DNA of 33,307 nt from Syntrophaceae bacterium. Lineage in GTDB: Bacteria; Desulfobacterota; Syntrophia; Syntrophales; Smithellaceae. Each line of letters starts with the position of its first letter. Within the stretch, counting starts at the first letter, position 1. The stretch lies in NCBI GenBank assembly GCA_003142535.1, contig PLMQ01000061.1:55940-89246 (forward strand), read 5' to 3'. Below the pieces are notes generated by a model that saw nothing but the letters and a program-made list of their open reading frames with translations, did not search any database and was not told the origin of the DNA. The translations under genes and the position numbers were made by a program. Below are positions 11,384-31,231 of the stretch, piece after piece.

Positions 11384-11508
11384 ATACCATTTCTAAATCA
11401 AAGATGATATCGAAGCGGCAAGGAGGAGGCGACGAGGCGTATTGTACATACGTTGAGGAAGCCGACGACGACGCCAACAAAGATAGCGCTTTGATTCAGA
11501 ATTGGTAT
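11384..11508 (+). repeat. Repeat family B, copy 1 (upstream of the diadenylate cyclase gene)
   Basis: The 125-bp element begins ATACCATTTCTAAATCAAAG and ends with the inverse form, CTTTGATTCAGAATTGGTAT. Its core is GAGGCGTATTGTACATACG. It matches copy 4 at 31107-31231 (inverted) almost base for base through the first 70 bases, and copies 2 and 3 more loosely. It ends 8 bases before the -35 box of the next promoter. Confidence 0.85.
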
Positions 11509-11516
11509 AATCCCTC

Positions 11517-11579: not shown

Positions 11580-13031
11580 ATGGCTATTATCGATACTGTG
11601 TTAGCTTTTATAAAAAGTGTCCGAATACAAGATATTCTGGACATGGTAATTATCGCCCTGATGATCTTTGCTTTGCTCACGTGGTTTAAGACAAGGGCTT
11701 CGCGTTTTGTTCTCATCGGCATAATCCTGCTTGGCGGCGTTTACAGTGCTGCCCGTTTTTTCCAACTATATCTGACCACCATTGTTTTGCAGGGTTTTTT
11801 CGCCATCTTACTCTTTGTGTTAGTAGTTATTTTTCAGGAAGACCTGCGCCGTTTTTTCGAGAGACTCGCCCTGCTGGGAAACATCCGAAAAAAAATTCAG
11901 CCGTTATCCGCTTTGGAAGACATCGCCGGAATAATTGCCGAAACGGCGACAAATCTGGCCAAAAAACACTTTGGAGCTTTAATCGTTCTGCAAGGGGATG
12001 ATCCCCTGGAACGGCATATCAACGGCGGCACAGCCTTAGATGGAATTGTCAGCGAGCCGCTTTTGGAGAGTATTTTTGATCCTCATTCCGTTGGCCACGA
12101 CGGAGCGGTCATCATTAACGGTGATCGCATTAAAATGTTCGGTTGCCATTTGCCTCTTTCCAGCAATACGGCAAACTACGGCAATATCGGACTGCGGCAT
12201 ACGGCAGCGTTAGGCTTGGCGGAGCGCTCCGACGCTTTGTGCATTGTTGTTTCCGAAGAAAGAGGCACAATATCTCTAGCCTATCATGATGAATTGCTGG
12301 CAGTAAAAAATGCAGCTGCGCTGCATGAAGCGCTGGAGAAATTTTATATCCGCAACGTTCCGGCAAGAAAGTCATCTCCTGTCGTAGCCTGGCTTAAAGA
12401 GAACACCCGCGAAAAAGTTATTGCCATCATTATTTCCATTATTTTATGGATTACGTTCGGCTACCAGCGGGAAGTTGTCCGGCGTGATTTGATTATCCCC
12501 ATCGAATACACAAATGTTCCTCCCAACTGGCGAATTGATGAACCGCGAGTAACAGAAGCCAAAATTTTCCTTAAGGGTCCGGCACAGTCATTTCAGTTAC
12601 TTGATGAACGTTCACTCAAATTGTCTCTGGATTTGTCGCTCATTGCCGGCAAAAAACGGGAGTTCGCTCTGGATAAAGATATGGTCAATGCACCTTCCAG
12701 TTTATCCATAACCGAAATCGCTCCGGAAAAAATTCGCGTATATGCTTCCAAGCTTTCCCCCCATACATTTCCCTTAAATGTCGTTACGCAAAATTCTTTA
12801 CCCGATAATTTATCGTTACAAAAAATTACCGTTACGCCATCCGCAATACGTCTATTGATGGATTCCCGCTTAAGTCTGGATCAAATAAGAATTGAGACGG
12901 AACCGGTCGACCTGCAAAAAATATCAAAAACAACATACATTGATGCGAAAATTGTCTTACCTGTCGGCGTTTCTTTTCCTGAGGGAAAGACACCTGTTGC
13001 CCGTGTGGCAGTAAAAATAAAAATAAAATAA
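11580..13031 (+). CDS. cdaA: Membrane diadenylate cyclase (CdaA-type) fused to YbbR domains
   Basis: The protein should make c-di-AMP from two ATP at the inner membrane. Three N-terminal transmembrane helices (about residues 19-36, 42-58, 65-85) are followed by a DisA_N domain with the catalytic D-G-A (174-176) in H-D-G-A-V-I-I and the ATP-binding segment G-L-R-H-T-A-A-L-G-L (204-213). A fourth membrane helix (about 280-295) leads to a C-terminal region (about 300-483) with the beta-rich repeat pattern of YbbR/CdaR domains, such as P-I-E-Y-T-N-V-P-P-N-W. In Firmicutes, CdaA and its regulator CdaR (YbbR) are separate neighbours; here they form one 483-residue chain. The usual R-H-R motif reads R-H-T. 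corA follows 13 bases later, pointing to an ion-homeostasis role. Confidence 0.88.
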   Translation: MAIIDTVLAFIKSVRIQDILDMVIIALMIFALLTWFKTRASRFVLIGIILLGGVYSAARFFQLYLTTIVLQGFFAILLFVLVVIFQEDLRRFFERLALLGNIRKKIQPLSALEDIAGIIAETATNLAKKHFGALIVLQGDDPLERHINGGTALDGIVSEPLLESIFDPHSVGHDGAVIINGDRIKMFGCHLPLSSNTANYGNIGLRHTAALGLAERSDALCIVVSEERGTISLAYHDELLAVKNAAALHEALEKFYIRNVPARKSSPVVAWLKENTREKVIAIIISIILWITFGYQREVVRRDLIIPIEYTNVPPNWRIDEPRVTEAKIFLKGPAQSFQLLDERSLKLSLDLSLIAGKKREFALDKDMVNAPSSLSITEIAPEKIRVYASKLSPHTFPLNVVTQNSLPDNLSLQKITVTPSAIRLLMDSRLSLDQIRIETEPVDLQKISKTTYIDAKIVLPVGVSFPEGKTPVARVAVKIKIK

Positions 13032-13044
13032 TTATGAGGCAAAA

Positions 13045-14106
13045 ATGCGCAACAAACATAATAAAAGATCAAAGAAAGCAGGTCTTGCCCCCGGTAGCCT
13101 GATTCATATTGGCGAAGCATATGCGGATAAATCCAAAGTTTCCGTTATTCGTTACGCTGAAACTTCTTTTTCCGAACGTACAATAAGTTCTATAGAGGAT
13201 TTACGCAGTCAAAAAGATAAACAGGGAATTACCTGGATTAATATAGACGGCCTGCAGGATGTAAATTTACTCGAAGAAATCGGCAACATGTTTGGTCTGC
13301 ATCCGCTGGTTCTGGAAGATATTCTGAACACCGACCAGCGTCCGAAAATGGAAGATTATTGCAATTATATTTATATTGTCCTGCGAAATTATACAAGTCA
13401 GGGCAACGGCGATTTACAATCCGAACAGGTAAGCATTGTTTTAGGTAAAAACTTTGTTCTCTCTTTCCGCGAAAAAGGGAGCAGTCTTTTCGATACAATT
13501 GAAAAAAGGCTGCGTGCCGATAAAGGCCGCATCAGGAAATCCGGCGCTGACTATCTTGTCCATTCCATAATTGATAATATTGTGGATAACTATTTTATAG
13601 TTCTGGAAAATCTGGAAGAAAAGATAGAATTTCTGGAAGACGATTTAGTAAGGCAAACAACCACCGCAACACTCCAAGAGATTCACATCCTGAAGAGAGA
13701 ATTGATTCTGCTGAGAAAATCACTCTGGCCGCTACGGGAAGCGATTAGTTCTCTGGAAAGATCGGATTCCTCGCTAATCAGTGAAGCTACCGGCATTTAC
13801 TTTAAAGATATATTCGACCATGTTATTGCCATAATTGATACAGTAGAAACATTTAGGGATATGCTTTCCGGCATGCTGGATATCTACCTTTCATCTGTCA
13901 GTTACAGACTCAACGAGGTCATGAAAGTCCTGACAATTATTGCCACTATTTTTATGCCGCTGACTTTTCTGGCCGGAGTTTATGGCATGAATTTTAAGTT
14001 CATGCCCGAATTGGAATGGCGCTGGGCCTATTTTGGCGTTTTAGGAATTATGCTGGCCATTGCCCTGTTAATGATTTTCTATTTTAAAAAGAAAAAATGG
14101 TTCTAG
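13045..14106 (+). CDS. corA: CorA-family magnesium/cobalt channel
   Basis: CorA is a homopentameric Mg2+ (and Co2+) channel of the inner membrane. The 353-residue length is standard. A large acidic and helical cytoplasmic part is followed by two C-terminal transmembrane helices. The signature Y-G-M-N (G-M-N at 314-316) lies at the end of the first, a short E-W-R-W-A-Y loop follows, and the basic tail is K-K-K-K-W-F. A GAGG site precedes the ATG. It lies 13 bases after the diadenylate cyclase gene, so the two are probably co-transcribed; c-di-AMP control of ion transport is known for potassium systems, but a link to this channel is inference. Confidence 0.95.
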   Translation: MRNKHNKRSKKAGLAPGSLIHIGEAYADKSKVSVIRYAETSFSERTISSIEDLRSQKDKQGITWINIDGLQDVNLLEEIGNMFGLHPLVLEDILNTDQRPKMEDYCNYIYIVLRNYTSQGNGDLQSEQVSIVLGKNFVLSFREKGSSLFDTIEKRLRADKGRIRKSGADYLVHSIIDNIVDNYFIVLENLEEKIEFLEDDLVRQTTTATLQEIHILKRELILLRKSLWPLREAISSLERSDSSLISEATGIYFKDIFDHVIAIIDTVETFRDMLSGMLDIYLSSVSYRLNEVMKVLTIIATIFMPLTFLAGVYGMNFKFMPELEWRWAYFGVLGIMLAIALLMIFYFKKKKWF

Positions 14107-15524: not shown

Positions 15525-15542
15525 TAGAAAGCGAAAGGGTAT
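15525..15542. terminator. Small hairpin between convergent genes
   Basis: TACCCT and AGGGTA form a six-base stem at the very 3' end of the response-regulator gene. There is no long T-run, so it is only a weak terminator candidate. Confidence 0.3.
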
Positions 15543-16903
15543 TAATGTTTCAAACTGTATTTCTTTAATTTATAACGTAACATGCGTTCCGACATATTCA
15601 ATATTTCAGCGGCCTTTGTCTGATTATCTCCGGCCTTTTCCATGGCTTCCATTAGCAAATGCTTTTCTAATTCTTCCACTGATTCGCGCAATGAACCGGA
15701 TAATGTTTTGCCGATTGATTCGGACAAAGAAGTGGATTTGAATGGTAAATCATCAGATGTAATGTATTGATCACGGGCAATAACCACGGCGCGCTCCATT
15801 ATGTTAATCAGCTCCCGGACATTCCCCGGATAATTATATTTCAAAAGCAAATCGCGTGCTTCAGAAGACAATCCCTGAATATTTTTTCCATTTTCCCGAG
15901 AGAACTTTTCCACAAAATGATCAAGCAAAGCAGGTAAATCTTCTTTTCTTTCCCGCAACGGCGGCAGCGCCATAGTAACAACTTTTAATCTATAAAAAAG
16001 GTCTTCCCGAAAGTTCCCTTCTTTGACCTGAATATCCAGATCCCGATTGGTAGCACTGATGATCCGGACATCAACATGAATATTAATATTGCTGCCCAAA
16101 CGCTGGAATTCCCGTTCCTGCAAAAAGCGCAGCAGCTTAACCTGTATAGTAGGACTCAATTCCCCTATTTCATCAAGAAAGAGGGTCCCGCCATCTGCCT
16201 CTTCAAAACGACCGATACGCCTAGCGGTGGCTCCGGTAAAAGCTCCTTTTTCATGGCCAAACAATTCGCTTTCCAGCAAGTTTTCATGTAGCGCGCCGCA
16301 ATTAACAACAATGATTGGTTTTTGACCGCGGGTACTTAACTGATGAATCAGACGTGCCAAAAGCTCTTTACCAGTCCCGCTTTCTCCCTGAATTAGCACG
16401 GATGCCCGGCTCGCGGCCACGCGGCTGGCCATGTTGATCAGTTCTGTCATACGCGGGCTCTTGTAAATTATCCGGTCGGCAGTAACGCCCTTTTTACCGA
16501 GTTCTTCCTTCAAAAGTTCGTTTTCCCGAATCAGTTTTCTTCTCTCTGCCACCCTTTCTACTAAAAGCAACAATTCATCCAGTTCTACCGGCTTTGTTAT
16601 ATAGTCAATCGCACCAACTTTAATAGCTTCAACTGCCGTTTCAATTGTCCCGTAGGCAGTGATGATGACAACATCGATTTCCGGATTGATGCGTTTTACT
16701 TCTTTTAGTACCTGCAATCCATCCATGCCGGGCATTTTATAATCTAAAAGGATCAAATCGAAATGACCGCTCATTACACCTTTTATTCCTGCTTCGCCGT
16801 TTTCCGCTTCGGCCACAGTATGACCTTCCGAACGTAAAAAATCACGCAGCATTTCACGCTGGGATTGGCCGTCTTCAACAACGAGAATGCTTAATTTTTG
16901 CAT
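15542..16903 (-). CDS. NtrC-family sigma-54-dependent response regulator
   Basis: The 453-residue protein has three domains in order. The receiver (1-120) has acidic pocket E10/D11, phospho-acceptor D54 in L-L-D-Y-K-M-P-G-M-D-G and K104. The AAA+ sigma-54 activation domain (about 143-370) has Walker A G-E-S-G-T-G-K-E (173-180), the sigma-54 contact loop G-A-F-T-G-A (220-225) and Walker B L-F-L-D-E-I-G-E. A Fis-type helix-turn-helix lies at the C-terminus (about 420-450). All elements needed to open sigma-54 promoters are intact. It follows the kinase gene by 14 bases. The pair resembles ZraSR/AtoSC/GlrKR; the signal is unknown. Its likely targets include the promoter-like sequence at 18970-18985. 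Confidence 0.95.
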   Translation of the reverse strand: MQKLSILVVEDGQSQREMLRDFLRSEGHTVAEAENGEAGIKGVMSGHFDLILLDYKMPGMDGLQVLKEVKRINPEIDVVIITAYGTIETAVEAIKVGAIDYITKPVELDELLLLVERVAERRKLIRENELLKEELGKKGVTADRIIYKSPRMTELINMASRVAASRASVLIQGESGTGKELLARLIHQLSTRGQKPIIVVNCGALHENLLESELFGHEKGAFTGATARRIGRFEEADGGTLFLDEIGELSPTIQVKLLRFLQEREFQRLGSNINIHVDVRIISATNRDLDIQVKEGNFREDLFYRLKVVTMALPPLRERKEDLPALLDHFVEKFSRENGKNIQGLSSEARDLLLKYNYPGNVRELINIMERAVVIARDQYITSDDLPFKSTSLSESIGKTLSGSLRESVEELEKHLLMEAMEKAGDNQTKAAEILNMSERMLRYKLKKYSLKH

Positions 16904-16917
16904 AAACTTATCTCTTA

Positions 16918-18702
16918 TTATGTTTTGTCAATGAGTTTTTCACGGGGCAAAACAACTTCAAAAGTCGTTCCATCCCCTCTCCGGCTGATGACCCGGATTT
17001 CGCCGCCATGTCCCTTGATTATTTCACTGGCCAGCGGTATCCCTAAGCCCAATCCTTTTTCTTTAGTGGTATATTCGGGACTGAAAATCCTTTCTATTTC
17101 CTCCGCAGTCATGCCGCACCCGGTATCAGAGATGCTAACAACAATATAATTTTTGCCTTCTTTATCAACGGTAATGGTAATTTTACCTTCCGCAGGCATT
17201 GCTTCCATCGCATTTTTAATCAAATTAAGAAATGACTGCTGAAGTTTGTTGATATCCATCGGAATTATTGCCGGAATCTGACGCCACCTTGTTTCAATAG
17301 TTATTCCGCGGGCTGAGGCCTCTTCACGAATCAAACTGACAATTTTTTGCAGCACTTCGACAACGGAAAACTCGCTCAGTTCCAACCTGCGACTTTTGGA
17401 AAAAGAGAGAAACTCCTCAATAATACCGTTGAGACGTTTGATTTCGTCCCTGATCACACTGGAAAGGTTCTGAAAATCATCCACCTTACTTTGATCACCA
17501 GGCACAAAATCTCTTTTCAATCTTTGTGTGGCCATGCTGATTGCATTCAATGGATTGCGAATCTCATGCGCCACACCGGCAGCTAATTGCCCCAATGAGG
17601 AGAGCCTCTCTGCTTTTTCTAACCGACGCTCCATCTCAATAATACCGGCAAGATGGCGGTTCTGATCATGATACAGAAGGAACATGGACAATAAAGCAAC
17701 TATAACGACTATACCCATAAAGACGAAAATATTCCGTCGGTTTTCCGCAATAATCTTATCCATTGAACCACGGTCAAGGCCGATTCTTATGATACCGACA
17801 ATTTTTTTATCAATATATAATGGCGCAGCCATGTCTAAAATCTTGTTATCGTCAAAATCTACTTTTCGGCTGGCAATTCTTACTTTACCGGACAGAATTT
17901 CCTTAATATTGAAATCATCGCTGCTTAAAGCTTTCACCGGCTGCCCGATGCTGCTCAGCAGTTTGTTCTGATCGTTAATTATTTGCATGTAAGTTATGCC
18001 GTGGCCTTCGCTAATTTTCTTTATACCTCGTTCGACGGCAACTTTTAAACTCCAGTAAAGCAGTCCCGGTTTATCCAGATTAATGACTACCGTGCCGCTA
18101 TTATCCTTGCGTCGCAGACCGACAAAACCAATCCCTTCTTTAGTGCGAATTAGCTCCAGTATTTCAATTGTTGTCAGTTTCCGTCCGCCTCTCTCCAATT
18201 CATTTTTCTCGAGCATATCCGTTTTTAAATGACCGCTCTGGTAAACAGCTTGTCCATGAGAATCAAGAACAGCCAGATACCAGAAATTATTATCTACAGC
18301 TAATTTGTGGAGATAATGATTACTTATTTTTCCTTTTTTCCATTCTTCATCAATTTTTCTGCCGAACTCCGTCAGGGCTTCAATTACCCATTTTTTGGAA
18401 TAGGTGGCTTCCTCCTGGCTGGCTGTTTTAATTTCCGAGCCTTTCTTTTCAGGCATGGCAATGATACTTTTCAGATTTTCTTCAGTTAATCGCTGCAAAA
18501 CACTTACTGTATTCAGCGCCTGATCTTCCATAAACCCAACAAGGTTGGTCTCGCTCCTTCTAATATCTAATAATCCCATAATCAAGATCAGCGCTACCAA
18601 AACCGCAGAAACGATAGCAACGGCTAATGGCTGTAAAAAAGTGCCATTATAATTGTATTTTTTCCGGCTAATGATTAGTTTTTTCTTTCTTAAAGAAAAC
18701 AT
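16918..18702 (-). CDS. Membrane sensor histidine kinase (NtrB/ZraS-type)
   Basis: The 594-residue protein has a transmembrane helix near 24-45, a periplasmic sensor of about 280 residues that looks like a double Cache/PAS fold (for example A-A-P-L-Y-I-D-K-K-I-V-G-I-I-R-I), and a second helix near 328-350. A short coiled linker precedes the kinase core. The phospho-acceptor H379 lies in G-V-A-H-E-I-R-N-P-L-N-A; the N box is N-L-I-K-N-A-M-E-A, and the G boxes are D-T-G-C-G-M and G-L-G-L-G-I-P. The family partners NtrC-type regulators, and the partner gene lies 14 bases downstream. AAGGAG six bases before the ATG supports the start. No HAMP domain is evident. Confidence 0.93.
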   Translation of the reverse strand: MFSLRKKKLIISRKKYNYNGTFLQPLAVAIVSAVLVALILIMGLLDIRRSETNLVGFMEDQALNTVSVLQRLTEENLKSIIAMPEKKGSEIKTASQEEATYSKKWVIEALTEFGRKIDEEWKKGKISNHYLHKLAVDNNFWYLAVLDSHGQAVYQSGHLKTDMLEKNELERGGRKLTTIEILELIRTKEGIGFVGLRRKDNSGTVVINLDKPGLLYWSLKVAVERGIKKISEGHGITYMQIINDQNKLLSSIGQPVKALSSDDFNIKEILSGKVRIASRKVDFDDNKILDMAAPLYIDKKIVGIIRIGLDRGSMDKIIAENRRNIFVFMGIVVIVALLSMFLLYHDQNRHLAGIIEMERRLEKAERLSSLGQLAAGVAHEIRNPLNAISMATQRLKRDFVPGDQSKVDDFQNLSSVIRDEIKRLNGIIEEFLSFSKSRRLELSEFSVVEVLQKIVSLIREEASARGITIETRWRQIPAIIPMDINKLQQSFLNLIKNAMEAMPAEGKITITVDKEGKNYIVVSISDTGCGMTAEEIERIFSPEYTTKEKGLGLGIPLASEIIKGHGGEIRVISRRGDGTTFEVVLPREKLIDKT

Positions 18703-18731
18703 TTCGCTCCTTTGTGCTAATTTTGATCGTC

Positions 18732-18759
18732 ATATTAGGTGATTCCATAGAAAAGTCAA
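18732..18759 (-). promoter_or_regulatory. Possible sigma-70-type promoter of the kinase/regulator pair
   Basis: On the minus strand TTGACT (18759-18754) and TAATAT (18737-18732) are 16 bases apart, about 30 bases before the kinase ATG. The -10 box is only a fair match. Confidence 0.45.
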
Positions 18760-18778
18760 TCGTTATTGCGCAACCTAC

Positions 18779-18794
18779 TCGACATATTTGTCGA
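18779..18794. promoter_or_regulatory. Dyad TCGACA-N4-TGTCGA, possible activator-binding site
   Basis: The arms TCGACA and TGTCGA form a 16-base dyad. It lies just upstream of the possible kinase promoter and about 200 bases upstream of the divergent sigma-54-like promoter, a typical distance for an NtrC-type enhancer site. A weaker relative, CGAC-N7-GTCG, lies at 18891-18905. Confidence 0.5.
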
Positions 18795-18890
18795 AAGGAT
18801 AACAAATAATGTAATATACATATACCTGTTTTTACTATTATTTTTAAATAACCCTGTATTTTCCCCGACATTTCTTGCCGCAAGTAGCTG

Positions 18891-18905
18891 CGACGTATTG
18901 AGTCG
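18891..18905. promoter_or_regulatory. Second CGAC-N7-GTCG dyad, possible activator-binding site
   Basis: CGAC (18891-18894) and GTCG (18902-18905) repeat the half-sites of the dyad at 18779-18794 with one extra central base. It lies roughly 100 bases upstream of the candidate sigma-54 start point. Confidence 0.35.
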
Positions 18906-18969
18906 TAAAAAATCGCGTTGTTAATTATTTCTTATTATTTTCAATTACTTAGACTTATTTTGAAAATTA

Positions 18970-18985
18970 TGGCATAATACATGCT
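18970..18985 (+). promoter_or_regulatory. Sigma-54-like promoter (-24/-12) with an overlapping sigma-70-like -10
   Basis: TGGCAT (18970-18975) and ATGCT (18981-18985) place the GG and GC doublets at the sigma-54 spacing and match TGGCAC-N5-TTGCT with two differences. The same stretch can be read as a sigma-70 promoter, TTAGAC-N18-CATAAT (18949-18978). The sigma-70 start (about 18985) would retain the full outer helix of the RNA described next; the sigma-54 start (about 18996) would trim it. Confidence 0.45.
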
Positions 18986-19120
18986 TTAGATAAGAGCAAA
19001 GAAAAGATTGTCGACTAAATATAACGGGCATGATTAGCCGGCGACAAAATAAACCAGGAAGGCATTTTGCCTTCGCTCTTCATTAAGGGAGGCCACAACT
19101 AGGCCTCCCTTTCCTTTTTA
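18985..19120 (+). ncRNA. Candidate small structured RNA with Rho-independent terminator
   Basis: Nothing codes here on either strand, yet the stretch begins at a promoter-like site and ends in a strong terminator with no gene to terminate: the genes on both sides are on the minus strand. Three nested or adjacent helices can be drawn by eye: AAGAGC (18992-18997) with GCTCTT (19075-19080), TTGTCG (about 19009) with CGACAA (about 19042), and GAAGGC with GCCTTC (19058-19074, five-base loop). These make a three-way junction followed by the terminator stem. I do not recognise it as 6S, SRP, tmRNA or a known riboswitch. It lies divergently upstream of a sigma-54 activator/kinase pair, as GlmY does near GlrK. 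The existence of the transcript is inferred. Confidence 0.55.
19085..19120 (+). terminator. Rho-independent terminator of the candidate small RNA
   Basis: AAGGGAGGCC (19085-19094) and GGCCTCCCTT (19102-19111) form a perfect 10-bp GC-rich stem with a seven-base loop, followed by TCCTTTTTA. On the minus strand no comparable T-run follows and rarA lies on the other side, so it acts on the plus strand. Confidence 0.88.
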
Positions 19121-19121
19121 T

Positions 19122-19266
19122 TCCACTTCTAAATTAAAGCGCTATCTTTGTTGGCAGAGCCTGCCCGGCGCATGCTGGGTCATCGGCTACTTAACGTATT
19201 CTTCGTGTACGCCTGCTTCGCCTCTTCCTCGCCGCCTCGATATCATCTTTTATTTAGAAGTGGAGT
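19122..19266 (-). repeat. Repeat family B, copy 2 (between the small RNA and rarA)
   Basis: Perfect 13-bp terminal inverted repeats, TCCACTTCTAAAT (19122-19134) and ATTTAGAAGTGGA (19252-19264), bound a 145-bp element. Its minus strand shares GATGATATCGAGGCGGC and the ACGTTAAGTAGCCGATGA block with the other B copies. An insertion in its left part (GCCTGCCCGGCGCATGCTGG) makes it the longest copy. Confidence 0.82.
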
Positions 19267-19314
19267 AGCCATTAATTCAGAAAATTTCTGTCTAGACTCC
19301 TATTGTTAAGCAAT

Positions 19315-20667
19315 TTATTTGCCATTTTTATCTGCCGCTTTTTTTTGCCGCCAGAAATCCATTCTTTCCTTAATGGTCTTTTCATAACCGGTCTCTTTGG
19401 GCTCGTAAAATCTTTGCCCGCGTATTTTTTCCGGCAGGTATTCCTGAGCCACATAAGCATCGGCAAATTCATGAGCGTATTTATATCCTTTGCTGTAATC
19501 CAGAGATTTCATAAGCTTCGTCGGCGCGTTACGGATATGCAGCGGCACCGGCAGATAACCGGTCTTTGCTATAACTTCTTTGACTTGCCCATAGCCTACA
19601 TAAAGTGAATTGCTCTTCGGCGCCGTTGCCAAATAAGCGGCTGCCTGCGCCAGAGCCAGCTCACCTTCCGGCAGGCCGATAAATTCAAAAGCCTGCTTGG
19701 CGGCAATTGCCACCATTAAAGCGTGCGGGTCGGCGTTACCGATGTCTTCGGAGGCAAAACGAACCATGCGGCGGGCAATGTACAGCGGGTCTTCTCCCGC
19801 GGCCAGCATCCTTCCCAACCAATATAGCGCGGCATCAGGATCGCTGCCTCTCAAACTCTTATGGAGCGCGGAAATCAAATTATAATGTTCTTCACCATTT
19901 TTATCATACAAAAGAGCTTTTTTCTGCAGAGCATCCTGAGCAAACTCAGCAGTAATGATTCTCTTTTCTGCCGGCGCGTTTTGCAGCAGGGATACAATGG
20001 CTTCCAGATTGTTCAGAGCACTGCGGGCATCGCCATCGGCAAAAGCAACAAGCACACGAACGGCGTCAATTTCGGCTTGAATCTGTAATTTCCCCAAACC
20101 TTTTTGTTTATCCTGGAGAGCTCTTTCAACTATGGCGGCCAGTTCCTGCTCGGCAAATGGCTTGAGCAACAACACCCGCGTCCGGGATAAAAGGGGAGCA
20201 ATTACTTCAAATGAAGGATTTTCCGTCGTCGCACCGATTAAAGTAATTAAGCCGCTTTCGACATGCGGCAGGAAAGCATCCTGTTGCGCCTTATTGAAAC
20301 GGTGTATTTCGTCAACGAATAAAATTGTCTTTTTCTTTTTATTCTCCAGGGTGTCTTTGGCCTCTTCAATTACCGTCCTAATTTCTTTAACACCCGCGAG
20401 CACCGCAGAGAAACTGACAAAATTTGATTTCGTTTCCTGCGCTAATAGTCGCGCCAAGGTTGTTTTCCCTGATCCGGGAGGACCCCAAAAAATCATGGAA
20501 AACAATTTGTCTTCTTCAATAGCGCACCGCAACAGGCTGCCTTCACTCAGCAAATGCGGCTGTCCTATATATTCGGCAAGAGTGCGAGGCCGCATCCTTT
20601 CCGCCAGCGGCGCGTTTTCGTTTACTTCATTCTTACCCGCACCATGAAATAAATCCAACGTCTTCAT
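19315..20667 (-). CDS. rarA: Replication-associated recombination protein A (AAA+ ATPase)
   Basis: RarA/MgsA acts at stalled replication forks and resembles the clamp-loader and RuvB ATPases. The 450-residue length is typical. Seen are the N-terminal P-L-A-E-R-M-R-P-R-T-L-A-E-Y-I-G-Q motif, Walker A G-P-P-G-S-G-K-T (62-69), Walker B L-F-V-D-E-I-H-R-F-N-K, sensor I G-A-T-T-E-N-P-S-F, and the C-terminal tetramerisation region with Y-x-P (Y-L-P-V-P-L-H-I-R-N-A-P-T). Its ATG overlaps the stop of the small cysteine protein gene by four bases, so the two are translationally coupled. Confidence 0.95.
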   Translation of the reverse strand: MKTLDLFHGAGKNEVNENAPLAERMRPRTLAEYIGQPHLLSEGSLLRCAIEEDKLFSMIFWGPPGSGKTTLARLLAQETKSNFVSFSAVLAGVKEIRTVIEEAKDTLENKKKKTILFVDEIHRFNKAQQDAFLPHVESGLITLIGATTENPSFEVIAPLLSRTRVLLLKPFAEQELAAIVERALQDKQKGLGKLQIQAEIDAVRVLVAFADGDARSALNNLEAIVSLLQNAPAEKRIITAEFAQDALQKKALLYDKNGEEHYNLISALHKSLRGSDPDAALYWLGRMLAAGEDPLYIARRMVRFASEDIGNADPHALMVAIAAKQAFEFIGLPEGELALAQAAAYLATAPKSNSLYVGYGQVKEVIAKTGYLPVPLHIRNAPTKLMKSLDYSKGYKYAHEFADAYVAQEYLPEKIRGQRFYEPKETGYEKTIKERMDFWRQKKAADKNGK

Positions 20668-24660: not shown

Positions 24661-26367
24661 TTAATGCCGCCAGCCTTTTACTACCAATAGGGGCATATCT
24701 TCAAATAAATTTACCGGATTATCCATAAGTATTGTAATCTCTTCAATAGTTTTACCATATGCTTGGAAAATAGATGCCACCTGCTGTGACCAGGCAATCT
24801 GGTATGCCCCTTCACTCCAGCCATAAGGCGAATTAGGGGCAGGTGGCAGATGCAAAGGACTCTCTCCCGGATGAAGAAAATCCAATCTACCTACAACCAA
24901 TACCCGATGCCCATTTTGTAGTGTCTTGGTAATTTTTTGTAAAACAAGCTTTATCGGTTCTTCCTCCATCATTTTAATTTTAAGCATATCAGCACGATGT
25001 ACACTATGATCATCAATTTCCGGTAAAGTAATCCATGAAGCAGCGCCTTTGTAATAACGTGCGAAAGTAACGCCGCAATATGCTTGATATACAACAATCA
25101 AATCATCTTTTTCAGAGAGTGTTTCCAGTTTGGCCGCCAGTATATCGATATTTGTCCGGCGGGTATGGGCGGCATTCCATGAATTCGTAAAAATAAAAAC
25201 CGCAATACCGATTGCACATACTATCCGTATTATTCTACCAGCAAAACTTTTTTCACAAATAACGTCAATACCCTTATCTAATATTACAATGAGAACCGCC
25301 ATCAAAGGGAGATAATACCAACTTTGCGTAGGATAAGACAATATTTTCAGGAAACCCATATAAGCAACTATGCTCAAAAACATTGTTGTAAATAGAAATA
25401 CAGCCATGTCCCTTTGATCTAAAAAACGATCGGAAATGGGCTTAGCCAATATTCTGATAAATGTAAATACAGCAAGAAGCGCCAATATAAACCATGTCCA
25501 CGCAAGCAATGTACCCGCAGGATCAATGGCACTTTTAAATTTGCCGAAAATGAACGATAGAGTCATTGGGCCTTTCATAATGATAGACCATTCACTAACC
25601 TTGGAGACTATTCCAAGATAAGGCAATACTGATACTGCCGCTAATATGCCTGCGCTGAGCGGGAAAATGGTCAGTTTCCATTGACGGCGATAAAGGCCGA
25701 CTGCAACCGCACCCGTGCATATTGCGAATACAAGAAATGAGTTACGGTAGAGGCACTGCACGCTCAGGAGGATACAAACTGTATTTACAACCATTCGCCA
25801 AGGCGTAGGATTCTGAAAAACACGCCACATGGTACCCAAAGACAACAGTATCAGCAACACCCCCAGACCATAAGCGCGCAAGGAGTCACAAAAGAATGCG
25901 GTTGGAGACATGGCGAAAAGTACCAGTGAAATAACCGGTAGACGATTACCCAATGCCCGTCCGGCAAACCAAAGAGCGCCCAGAGTCCCCAACCCGATAA
26001 TTAATCCCAGCACCCGCAGCGCGAGATCCGTTCCGCCAAAACCAATAAATATCCATGCCCGGAGAAGTAGAAACCAGATAATAGGAAATGAATCATATTG
26101 AAGCTTGTGCCAGATGTCAGTTATTGACGTTAGTTTACTAATATTGACACTGTTTACCTCATCGCGCCAAAGCCCTCCCGAATGTAAGAAAACGAGCAAA
26201 TGAAGTATGATTAAAACGAGCAGAAGGATAGCGGCTAGTCCCCATTCCAGCCATTTAATCTGCTTGATATATTTTGGTCCGACATCCGCACCCGATGCGT
26301 CTATGCGAAAGGAATGATTTGTCTTTCGGGATAATTTTGTTATTTTTGTCCGCTTTTTTTGTAACAT
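24661..26367 (-). CDS. GT39-like polytopic membrane glycosyltransferase
   Basis: I choose the ATG at 26367 over a TTG four codons upstream; neither has a clear ribosome-binding site. After a basic tail there are about ten hydrophobic helices, starting W-G-L-A-A-I-L-L-L-V-L. The first loop carries G-G-L-W-R-D-E-V-N-S, the GT-C type catalytic D-E motif. A soluble C-terminal domain of about 170 residues follows. It shares its plan with the gene at 22898 but little direct sequence, so it is a distant paralogue. It lies downstream of the GpsA-like gene on the same strand with a 77-base gap and may be co-transcribed. Confidence 0.82.
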   Translation of the reverse strand: MLQKKRTKITKLSRKTNHSFRIDASGADVGPKYIKQIKWLEWGLAAILLLVLIILHLLVFLHSGGLWRDEVNSVNISKLTSITDIWHKLQYDSFPIIWFLLLRAWIFIGFGGTDLALRVLGLIIGLGTLGALWFAGRALGNRLPVISLVLFAMSPTAFFCDSLRAYGLGVLLILLSLGTMWRVFQNPTPWRMVVNTVCILLSVQCLYRNSFLVFAICTGAVAVGLYRRQWKLTIFPLSAGILAAVSVLPYLGIVSKVSEWSIIMKGPMTLSFIFGKFKSAIDPAGTLLAWTWFILALLAVFTFIRILAKPISDRFLDQRDMAVFLFTTMFLSIVAYMGFLKILSYPTQSWYYLPLMAVLIVILDKGIDVICEKSFAGRIIRIVCAIGIAVFIFTNSWNAAHTRRTNIDILAAKLETLSEKDDLIVVYQAYCGVTFARYYKGAASWITLPEIDDHSVHRADMLKIKMMEEEPIKLVLQKITKTLQNGHRVLVVGRLDFLHPGESPLHLPPAPNSPYGWSEGAYQIAWSQQVASIFQAYGKTIEEITILMDNPVNLFEDMPLLVVKGWRH

Positions 26368-26444
26368 AGTCTCTGACAATTTATAAATTAAAAATGGATT
26401 TAAACATCGTAGATAGATATGGCTAATATAATATTATAATTAAA

Positions 26445-28103: not shown

Positions 28104-28778
28104 ATGACTAAATCAGGCATTGCTCCCTTGGAAAAAGTATCATTTTATTCTAACGGGATTATGAAAGAAAAAAAATATCAGCTAGAGGGGAAGCTGGAAG
28201 GTGAATACCTTTCCTATTTTGATGACGGCCAAATTATGGCGCACCTTAATTTTGCGGGCGGCAAGAAAAACGGCGTAGCCATAACTTATTACCGGAATGG
28301 GCAAATAAGGGAACAAACTGATTTCATAAGTGATAAAATGAATGGCCTTTATATTTCGTATTACGAAAAGGGGAACATTCGGGAACAAGAGAATTACAGG
28401 AACGGCAAACTGGAAGGCAAATATCAAATTTATTACCGAACTGGGCAGTTAAAAGAAGAAGAAAATTTTACTAACGGTAAATTTGCTGGCGAGTATCTTT
28501 GTTATTACAAGAATGGACAAACTAAAGAGAAAGGCTATTTCCATAACGACAGACGCGAAGGCGAATATGTCTCTTATTTCAAAAGCGGGAAAATAAAAGA
28601 AATGGCTACATTTAAGAACGGAAATGTTGTCGGTCAATTTCTGACATACAATGAAGACAGTTCATCTGCGGTTATATCTGACGACGATAATTCCGGTAAT
28701 TTATCGGAAAAGTGGGAAGAAAAAGATGTTGCCGATTTGCTTCAGAACCTGGCCAGTTTTGATAAAAAAAATAAGTGA
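28104..28778 (+). CDS. YwqK/MORN-like repeat protein
   Basis: The 224-residue protein is built of about seven repeats of roughly 23 residues with the pattern Y-x-x-G-Q-I-K-E-x-x-x-F-x-N-G-K-x-x-G-E-Y, as in MORN-type 'YwqK family antitoxin' proteins. This fold is a beta hairpin ladder that usually binds proteins or lipids. There is no signal peptide, so it is cytoplasmic. The last 40 residues are acidic and break the pattern. The toxin-antitoxin label in databases is weak evidence, and I see no toxin partner: the next gene, 8 bases downstream and co-transcribed, is a universal stress protein. Confidence 0.8.
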   Translation: MTKSGIAPLEKVSFYSNGIMKEKKYQLEGKLEGEYLSYFDDGQIMAHLNFAGGKKNGVAITYYRNGQIREQTDFISDKMNGLYISYYEKGNIREQENYRNGKLEGKYQIYYRTGQLKEEENFTNGKFAGEYLCYYKNGQTKEKGYFHNDRREGEYVSYFKSGKIKEMATFKNGNVVGQFLTYNEDSSSAVISDDDNSGNLSEKWEEKDVADLLQNLASFDKKNK

Positions 28779-31106: not shown

Positions 31107-31231
31107 ATACCAATTTTAAATCAAAGCGATATCTCTGTTAGCAGCGACGTCAACTTCCTCACCGTATGTACAATACGCCTCGTCGCCTCCTCCTTGCCGC
31201 CGCGATATCATCTTTGATTTAGAAATGGTAT
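31107..31231 (-). repeat. Repeat family B, copy 4 (5' leader of the cyclase gene)
   Basis: The inverted ends are ATACCAATTTTAAATCAAAG and CTTTGATTTAGAAATGGTAT. Its minus strand matches copy 1 nearly base for base over GATGATATCG, GCGGCAAGGAGGAGGCGACG and AGGCGTATTGTACATACG. Confidence 0.87.

Follow-up and report, generated by a model that had tools for sequence, protein, structure and literature searches.

Here, we describe a previously undescribed family of small RNAs (sRNAs) in the bacterial order Syntrophales; sensor-driven sRNAs as such are known elsewhere. The reference locus lies in the window, i.e., the whole 33,307-nucleotide stretch of DNA that was analysed, which belongs to a 2.9-Mb genome of the Smithellaceae (Syntrophales). 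Within it, the sRNA gene occupies a 612-bp gap (18703-19314) flanked by a histidine kinase gene on one side and rarA on the other (Table 1). We assign a probability of roughly 0.78 to the reading that the product is a trans-acting regulatory sRNA that serves the neighbouring two-component system as its dedicated output and works through Hfq-independent base pairing. The first-pass annotation of this DNA had proposed that a structured small RNA is encoded divergently from the genes for a sigma-54 activator and a kinase. Conservation throughout the order, covariation, a -24/-12 element that hardly varies, and a conserved enhancer-type dyad all support this proposal. Comparison demonstrates the gene, its structure, its promoter element, the dyad, the linkage to the kinase and regulator genes, and the absence of Hfq; from the sequence we infer its transcription. 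Syntrophales, such as Syntrophus and Smithella, are key partners of methanogens, and since this sRNA family is supported by covariation and its promoter, activator site, and sensor are defined, both the signal and the targets are directly testable.

Table 1. Features of the sRNA locus and its neighbouring genes (window coordinates)
Feature	Position	Strand	Remarks
NtrC-type response regulator	15542-16903	-	receiver, sigma-54 AAA+, Fis HTH; presumed RNA activator
Sensor histidine kinase	16918-18702	-	HisKA, HATPase_c, weak sCache matches; divergent from RNA
Putative enhancer (UAS) dyad CGACATTTCTTGCCG	18866-18880	+	imperfect CGRCA-N5-TGYCG; window version CGACA-N5-TGCCG
IHF-like site TTTCAATTACTTA	18939-18951	+	between UAS and promoter
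Sigma-54 promoter (-24/-12)	18970-18985	+	TGGCAT-N5-ATGCT (TGGCATAATACATGCT); GG-N10-GC spacing; predicted +1 ~18996
Small RNA gene, ~123 nt	18996-19118	+	5' end inferred from promoter, 3' end from terminator
SL1 hairpin	19008-19047	+	loop ACGGGCATG at 19024-19032
SL2 hairpin	19058-19074	+	GAAGGC-ATTTT-GCCTTC
Unpaired pyrimidine stretch	19076-19082	+	CTCTTCA (CTCCTCCT in other families); conserved; candidate seed
SL3, intrinsic terminator and U-rich tail	19085-19121	+	10 bp, 7-nt loop
RarA/MgsA (rarA)	19315-20667	-

Structure of the RNA gene

The foldable non-coding stretch of about 130 nt noted at first reading is confirmed: positions 18986-19120 fold at -44.6 kcal/mol (z = -5.4), none of 200 shuffles folds equally well, and conservation is far above chance. 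The covariance model of the family matches 19006-19118 with 120.7 bits. The helices conserved across relatives are SL1, SL2, and the terminator; the outer helix, which closes the 130-nt fold of the window sequence, is not conserved. The most conserved part of the RNA is the SL1 loop (CGGGCAUG), in which GGG is invariant in 64 of 64 sequences. The pyrimidine stretch, CUCYUC/CUCCUCCU, is likewise kept among homologues and is complementary to Shine-Dalgarno sequences, the window's own clade having CUCUUC and not the full CCUCC. Both segments are predicted to be exposed, with mean unpaired probabilities of 0.74 for the SL1 loop and 0.84 for the pyrimidine stretch, against 0.48 for the whole RNA. 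SL2 is dispensable; family f10 and a paralogue in genome G017 both lack it and retain the terminator as well as SL1 and the pyrimidine stretch.

The perfect 10-bp terminator that had been described is confirmed at 19085-19111, with 7 G-C pairs among its 10 and TCCTTTTTAT following the stem, and it belongs to the RNA rather than to a degraded gene. A strong terminator at the end of the RNA is also what an attenuator would have, so that one could regard the element as the 5' leader, riboswitch, or attenuator of a plus-strand gene, or as a degraded gene with a leftover terminator. However, a plus-strand gene downstream is absent, RarA being encoded on the other strand at most loci of the order, and one-base indels, together with an ATG that several clades no longer have, rule out a conserved reading frame, which makes this explanation very improbable. 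A small ORF starting from the SL1 loop was rejected on the same kind of evidence: several clades have ATA or ACG in place of its ATG, and the indels are not multiples of three.

Conservation and covariation across Syntrophales

When the DNA of 59 relatives was searched, almost all genomes of the window's own family proved to carry the RNA, with E values down to 1e-32; in many of these relatives, homology starts at or slightly before the -24 element. At the named loci, the RNA occupies a constant place, ~270-330 bp from the kinase start and on the opposite strand, and the named relatives of the window kinase come from Smithella, Smithellaceae, and Syntrophaceae genomes. A first covariance model detected the RNA in 89 of 155 Syntrophales genomes and a second in 94 of 155; relatives of the kinase are present in 142 of the 155. 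In other families, the RNA is again found beside the same kinase (~50% identity), usually between the kinase gene and rarA, and it is divergent from an orthologous kinase/NtrC-type regulator pair wherever both have been assembled. Several kinase loci missed by the first model were recovered by the second. Inspection of most other missed loci revealed a -24/-12 element and, after it, an RNA-like sequence that includes CUCCUCC and a terminator of the GGGGAGGUC/GACCUCCCC type, and seven model-negative kinase loci also have the UAS at the expected distance. The absence from three Smithellaceae genomes without a model match is only apparent: in each, the contig ends before the RNA's place. A covariance-model search of a 395-genome sample of the phylum gave no strong matches outside Syntrophales. 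Matches at L187 (outside Syntrophales) and L183, which come without promoter and kinase, were treated as chance, and a weak match of the second model in the window itself (28168-28266, minus strand, 26.6 bits), which overlaps an ORF on the opposite strand, is probably chance as well.

In an alignment of 64 distinct sequences, 95.9% of helix cells are paired, and changes on both sides occur in 15 of 20 base pairs. Covariation, the check proposed at the outset, is evident from 178 double-change cells versus 55 (sd 8) in shuffled alignments and at most 28 with partners slid; fitting the alignment to the model somewhat favours the structure, but the slid controls and the visible changes are still clear. 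An example of a compensatory change is UAUCGGUU/AGCCGAUA versus UGUCGACU/AGCCGACA. For SL3, double changes are seen in 6 of 7 helix pairs, and 98.7% of cells are paired. Single-sequence folds can mislead, and the terminator hairpin and the fold could in principle be chance structures of intergenic DNA; given conservation across the order together with covariation, this notion has next to no credibility.

Additional copies of the RNA exist in some genomes. Genome G040 carries a tandem pair (L179, 4520-4634 and 5480-5594) beside the kinase, and G017 has a kinase-free copy on another contig (L271, C62:26852-26951) with a -24/-12 element of its own; this paralogue, the one without SL2, keeps the promoter, SL1, and the pyrimidine stretch.

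Promoter and upstream elements

The sigma-54-like -24/-12 element recognized in the first-pass annotation is kept nearly without exception: GG-N10-GC, with TGC, stands at the RNA 5' end in 81 of the 82 loci examined, and from this spacing at 18970-18985, the +1 is therefore expected near 18996. That annotation had overlooked the UAS dyad and the IHF-like site. The dyad CGACATTTMTTGCCG occurs in 70 of 81 loci, with near-matches in most others, and its distance from the -24 T downstream is 100-105 bp in nearly all cases (mostly -102 to -105; ~104 bp in the window). When scored against the IHF consensus, WATCARNNNNTTR, 59 of 81 loci have a site matching at least 8 of the 9 specified positions, compared with ~14% of shuffles, and the site is mostly at a fixed position, -30/-31. 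A sigma-70-like promoter overlapping the sigma-54 element (18950-18978), also suggested earlier, was discarded: 5 such sites were found versus 4.0 expected by chance, and this one is not kept in relatives.

The combined UAS and sigma-54 pattern occurs about once per genome, in most genomes at the sRNA locus, and a reversed control pattern is rare; this suggests that a single regulator has the sRNA as its dedicated output. Because of gene linkage, the adjacent NtrC-type regulator, the gene of which follows that of the kinase on the minus strand, is presumed to bind the dyad and very probably activates the sRNA. At one locus of family f6 (L272, G039 C6:85170), a second UAS and sigma-54 promoter precede an RNA-like stretch that contains CUCCUCC and a strong terminator.

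The sensor system

The regulator and the kinase best fit AtoSC and ZraSR, with no curated cut-off reached: the regulator scores 459.7 bits against ZraR (cut-off 760) and 371.6 bits against LuxO (cut-off 800), the NtrC cut-off is not reached either, and the kinase scores 209 against ZraS (cut-off 479). At five of the Desulfobacterota loci outside Syntrophales that have a related kinase (31-36% identity), namely L216-L219 and L221, the gene behind the divergent sigma-54 promoter belongs to PF13801 (ZraP/CpxP-like); within Syntrophales, a PF13801 gene adjoins the kinase in families f6, f13, and f15. A divergent sigma-54 zraP (PF13801) gene is absent at the window locus. In Escherichia coli, the main target of ZraR is the zraP/zraSR spacer (PMC8249747). 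Because PF13801 genes lie at or near related kinases and ZraR has this target, we propose by analogy that the system may be ZraSR-like and envelope-sensing, with an RNA as its divergent target here. As in ZraSR/ZraP, a kinase and an NtrC-type regulator would have one main target in the divergent spacer; unlike in ZraSR/ZraP, the divergent sigma-54 promoter serves a non-coding RNA, and the ZraS and ZraR cut-offs are missed. A more specific proposal is tentative, and we would put it at somewhat under even odds: in an envelope-stress system of the ZraSR kind, an Hfq-independent sRNA of the anti-Shine-Dalgarno type, conserved throughout the order, would have taken the place of the divergent periplasmic chaperone gene as almost the only sigma-54 target of the regulator. 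In other Desulfobacterota, this position in the genome is occupied by a ZraP-like gene, and here by an sRNA, a contrast that would represent a case of a two-component system switching its output from protein to RNA in Hfq-less bacteria.

Proposed mechanism and targets

In the model that we favour, the kinase would sense an envelope or periplasmic signal and phosphorylate the NtrC-type regulator, which would oligomerise on the CGACA-N5-TGCCG dyad ~104 bp upstream and contact sigma-54 RNA polymerase via an IHF-assisted loop. The resulting RNA of ~123 nt, started at the sigma-54 promoter and ended at the intrinsic terminator, would then pair with target mRNAs through the exposed anti-Shine-Dalgarno-like stretch and the SL1 loop, without Hfq, most likely blocking ribosome binding. 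Activation by the adjacent regulator, the nature of the signal, base pairing, and the targets are steps that we infer. Hfq was found in none of 20 genomes, the control genomes being positive, and the sRNA is therefore likely Hfq-independent. A point against this model is that Hfq-independent pairing is less firmly documented for Gram-negative bacteria.

By sequence, the segments most likely to pair are the pyrimidine stretch and the SL1 loop. Sites complementary to the loop number 48 in the own genome versus 18 for the control, several of them in a repeat-like context; this search of the own genome gave no convincing target, and none of the sites is at a convincing translation start. Separately, the motif TTCATGCCCGTGAT, which partly complements the SL1 loop, occurs many times in the same genome, in several cases at repeat-like places.

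Alternatively, the RNA could be real and sigma-54-controlled and yet titrate a protein, in the manner of CrcZ, CsrB, or 6S RNA, with no mRNA pairing. The almost invariant loop GGGCAUG could then be a protein-binding loop, and the absence of Hfq would fit as well. However, each RNA has a single copy of the loop, repeated GGA or CA-rich motifs are absent, and the second conserved element complements Shine-Dalgarno sequences, so that we regard titration as unlikely, though it is a more serious contender than the attenuator or degraded-gene explanation, and prefer mRNA pairing.

Relationship to known small RNAs

Literature searches retrieved no paper joining sRNA, Syntrophales, and sigma-54. No Rfam family matches the RNA, whether in the window or in seven relatives; a MicX hit (29 bits versus a cut-off of 75) was dismissed, as it is on the opposite strand, with promoter and terminator on the plus strand. 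Known analogues are Pxr, Qrr, GlmY, CrcZ, and NrsZ, and among them, Pxr, Qrr1, and GlmY come closest.

The comparison with GlmY next to GlrKR (QseEF) of Enterobacteriaceae, made in the first-pass annotation, holds as an analogy and fails as an identity. There too, a sigma-54 promoter lies beside the genes for a kinase and an NtrC-type regulator, which would be the reason to consider the RNA a GlmY family member. Against this, the Rfam GlmY covariance model does not match the window, whether at the gathering score or with E values of up to 10, and has no match in the seven relatives; the regulator, at 368.9 bits versus a GlrR cut-off of 763, is not GlrR; and the gene order differs. We therefore give membership in the GlmY family hardly any weight. 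Pxr/PxrKR and Qrr1/LuxO resemble the present system no less than GlmY/GlrKR does.

The Qrr RNAs of Vibrio are sigma-54 sRNAs under an NtrC-type regulator, LuxO, with qrr1 divergent from luxO, and they are multi-copy in some species, which the extra sRNA copies in G040 and G017 recall. Qrr RNAs need Hfq, which is absent here, and the present family further differs in lacking an Rfam match and in having a regulator that falls short of the LuxO cut-off. Unlike CpxQ, which arises by processing of the 3' end of an mRNA and relies on Hfq, the RNA described here comes with a sigma-54 promoter of its own and without an mRNA. The resemblance to CpxQ (cited in PMC7602753) is that of an envelope-stress two-component system with a ZraP/CpxP-type locus, the cpxP 3' end, that yields a regulatory RNA. 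Pxr of Myxococcus xanthus, with PxrK/PxrR, shares a sigma-54 promoter, three predicted stem-loops, a conserved SL1, and an Hfq-less host (PMC5684412, PMC5568312). In both cases, an NtrC-like regulator and a kinase are encoded next to the sRNA, and in the case of Pxr, they control it; Myxococcus has no hfq (PMC5684412), so that Pxr must be Hfq-independent. By contrast, pxr sits downstream of pxrR and is not divergent from the kinase gene, and Pxr is confined to Cystobacterineae. Local alignment with the Pxr pieces given as primers and probe in PMC5568312, a partial test, was no better than with shuffles (0.14).

Other features of the window

Just past the sRNA terminator lies an element of ~150 bp (19119-19270) with 21-bp inverted ends, TATTCCACTTCTAAATTAAAG and CTTTTATTTAGAAGTGGAGTA, which recurs at 11387-11509 and 31174-31228 of the window. 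Because it has 54 matches in its own genome, this element is an interspersed MITE- or REP-like repeat. A 572-aa ORF at 24661-26379 has no Pfam or NCBIfam matches. Finally, a single chain encoded at 11580-13031 combines matches to CdaA_N, diadenylate cyclase (DAC), and YbbR, and is followed by a CorA-type transporter (13045-14106); judging from these domains, the product is apparently a c-di-AMP synthase fused to its usually separate YbbR/CdaR-type partner.
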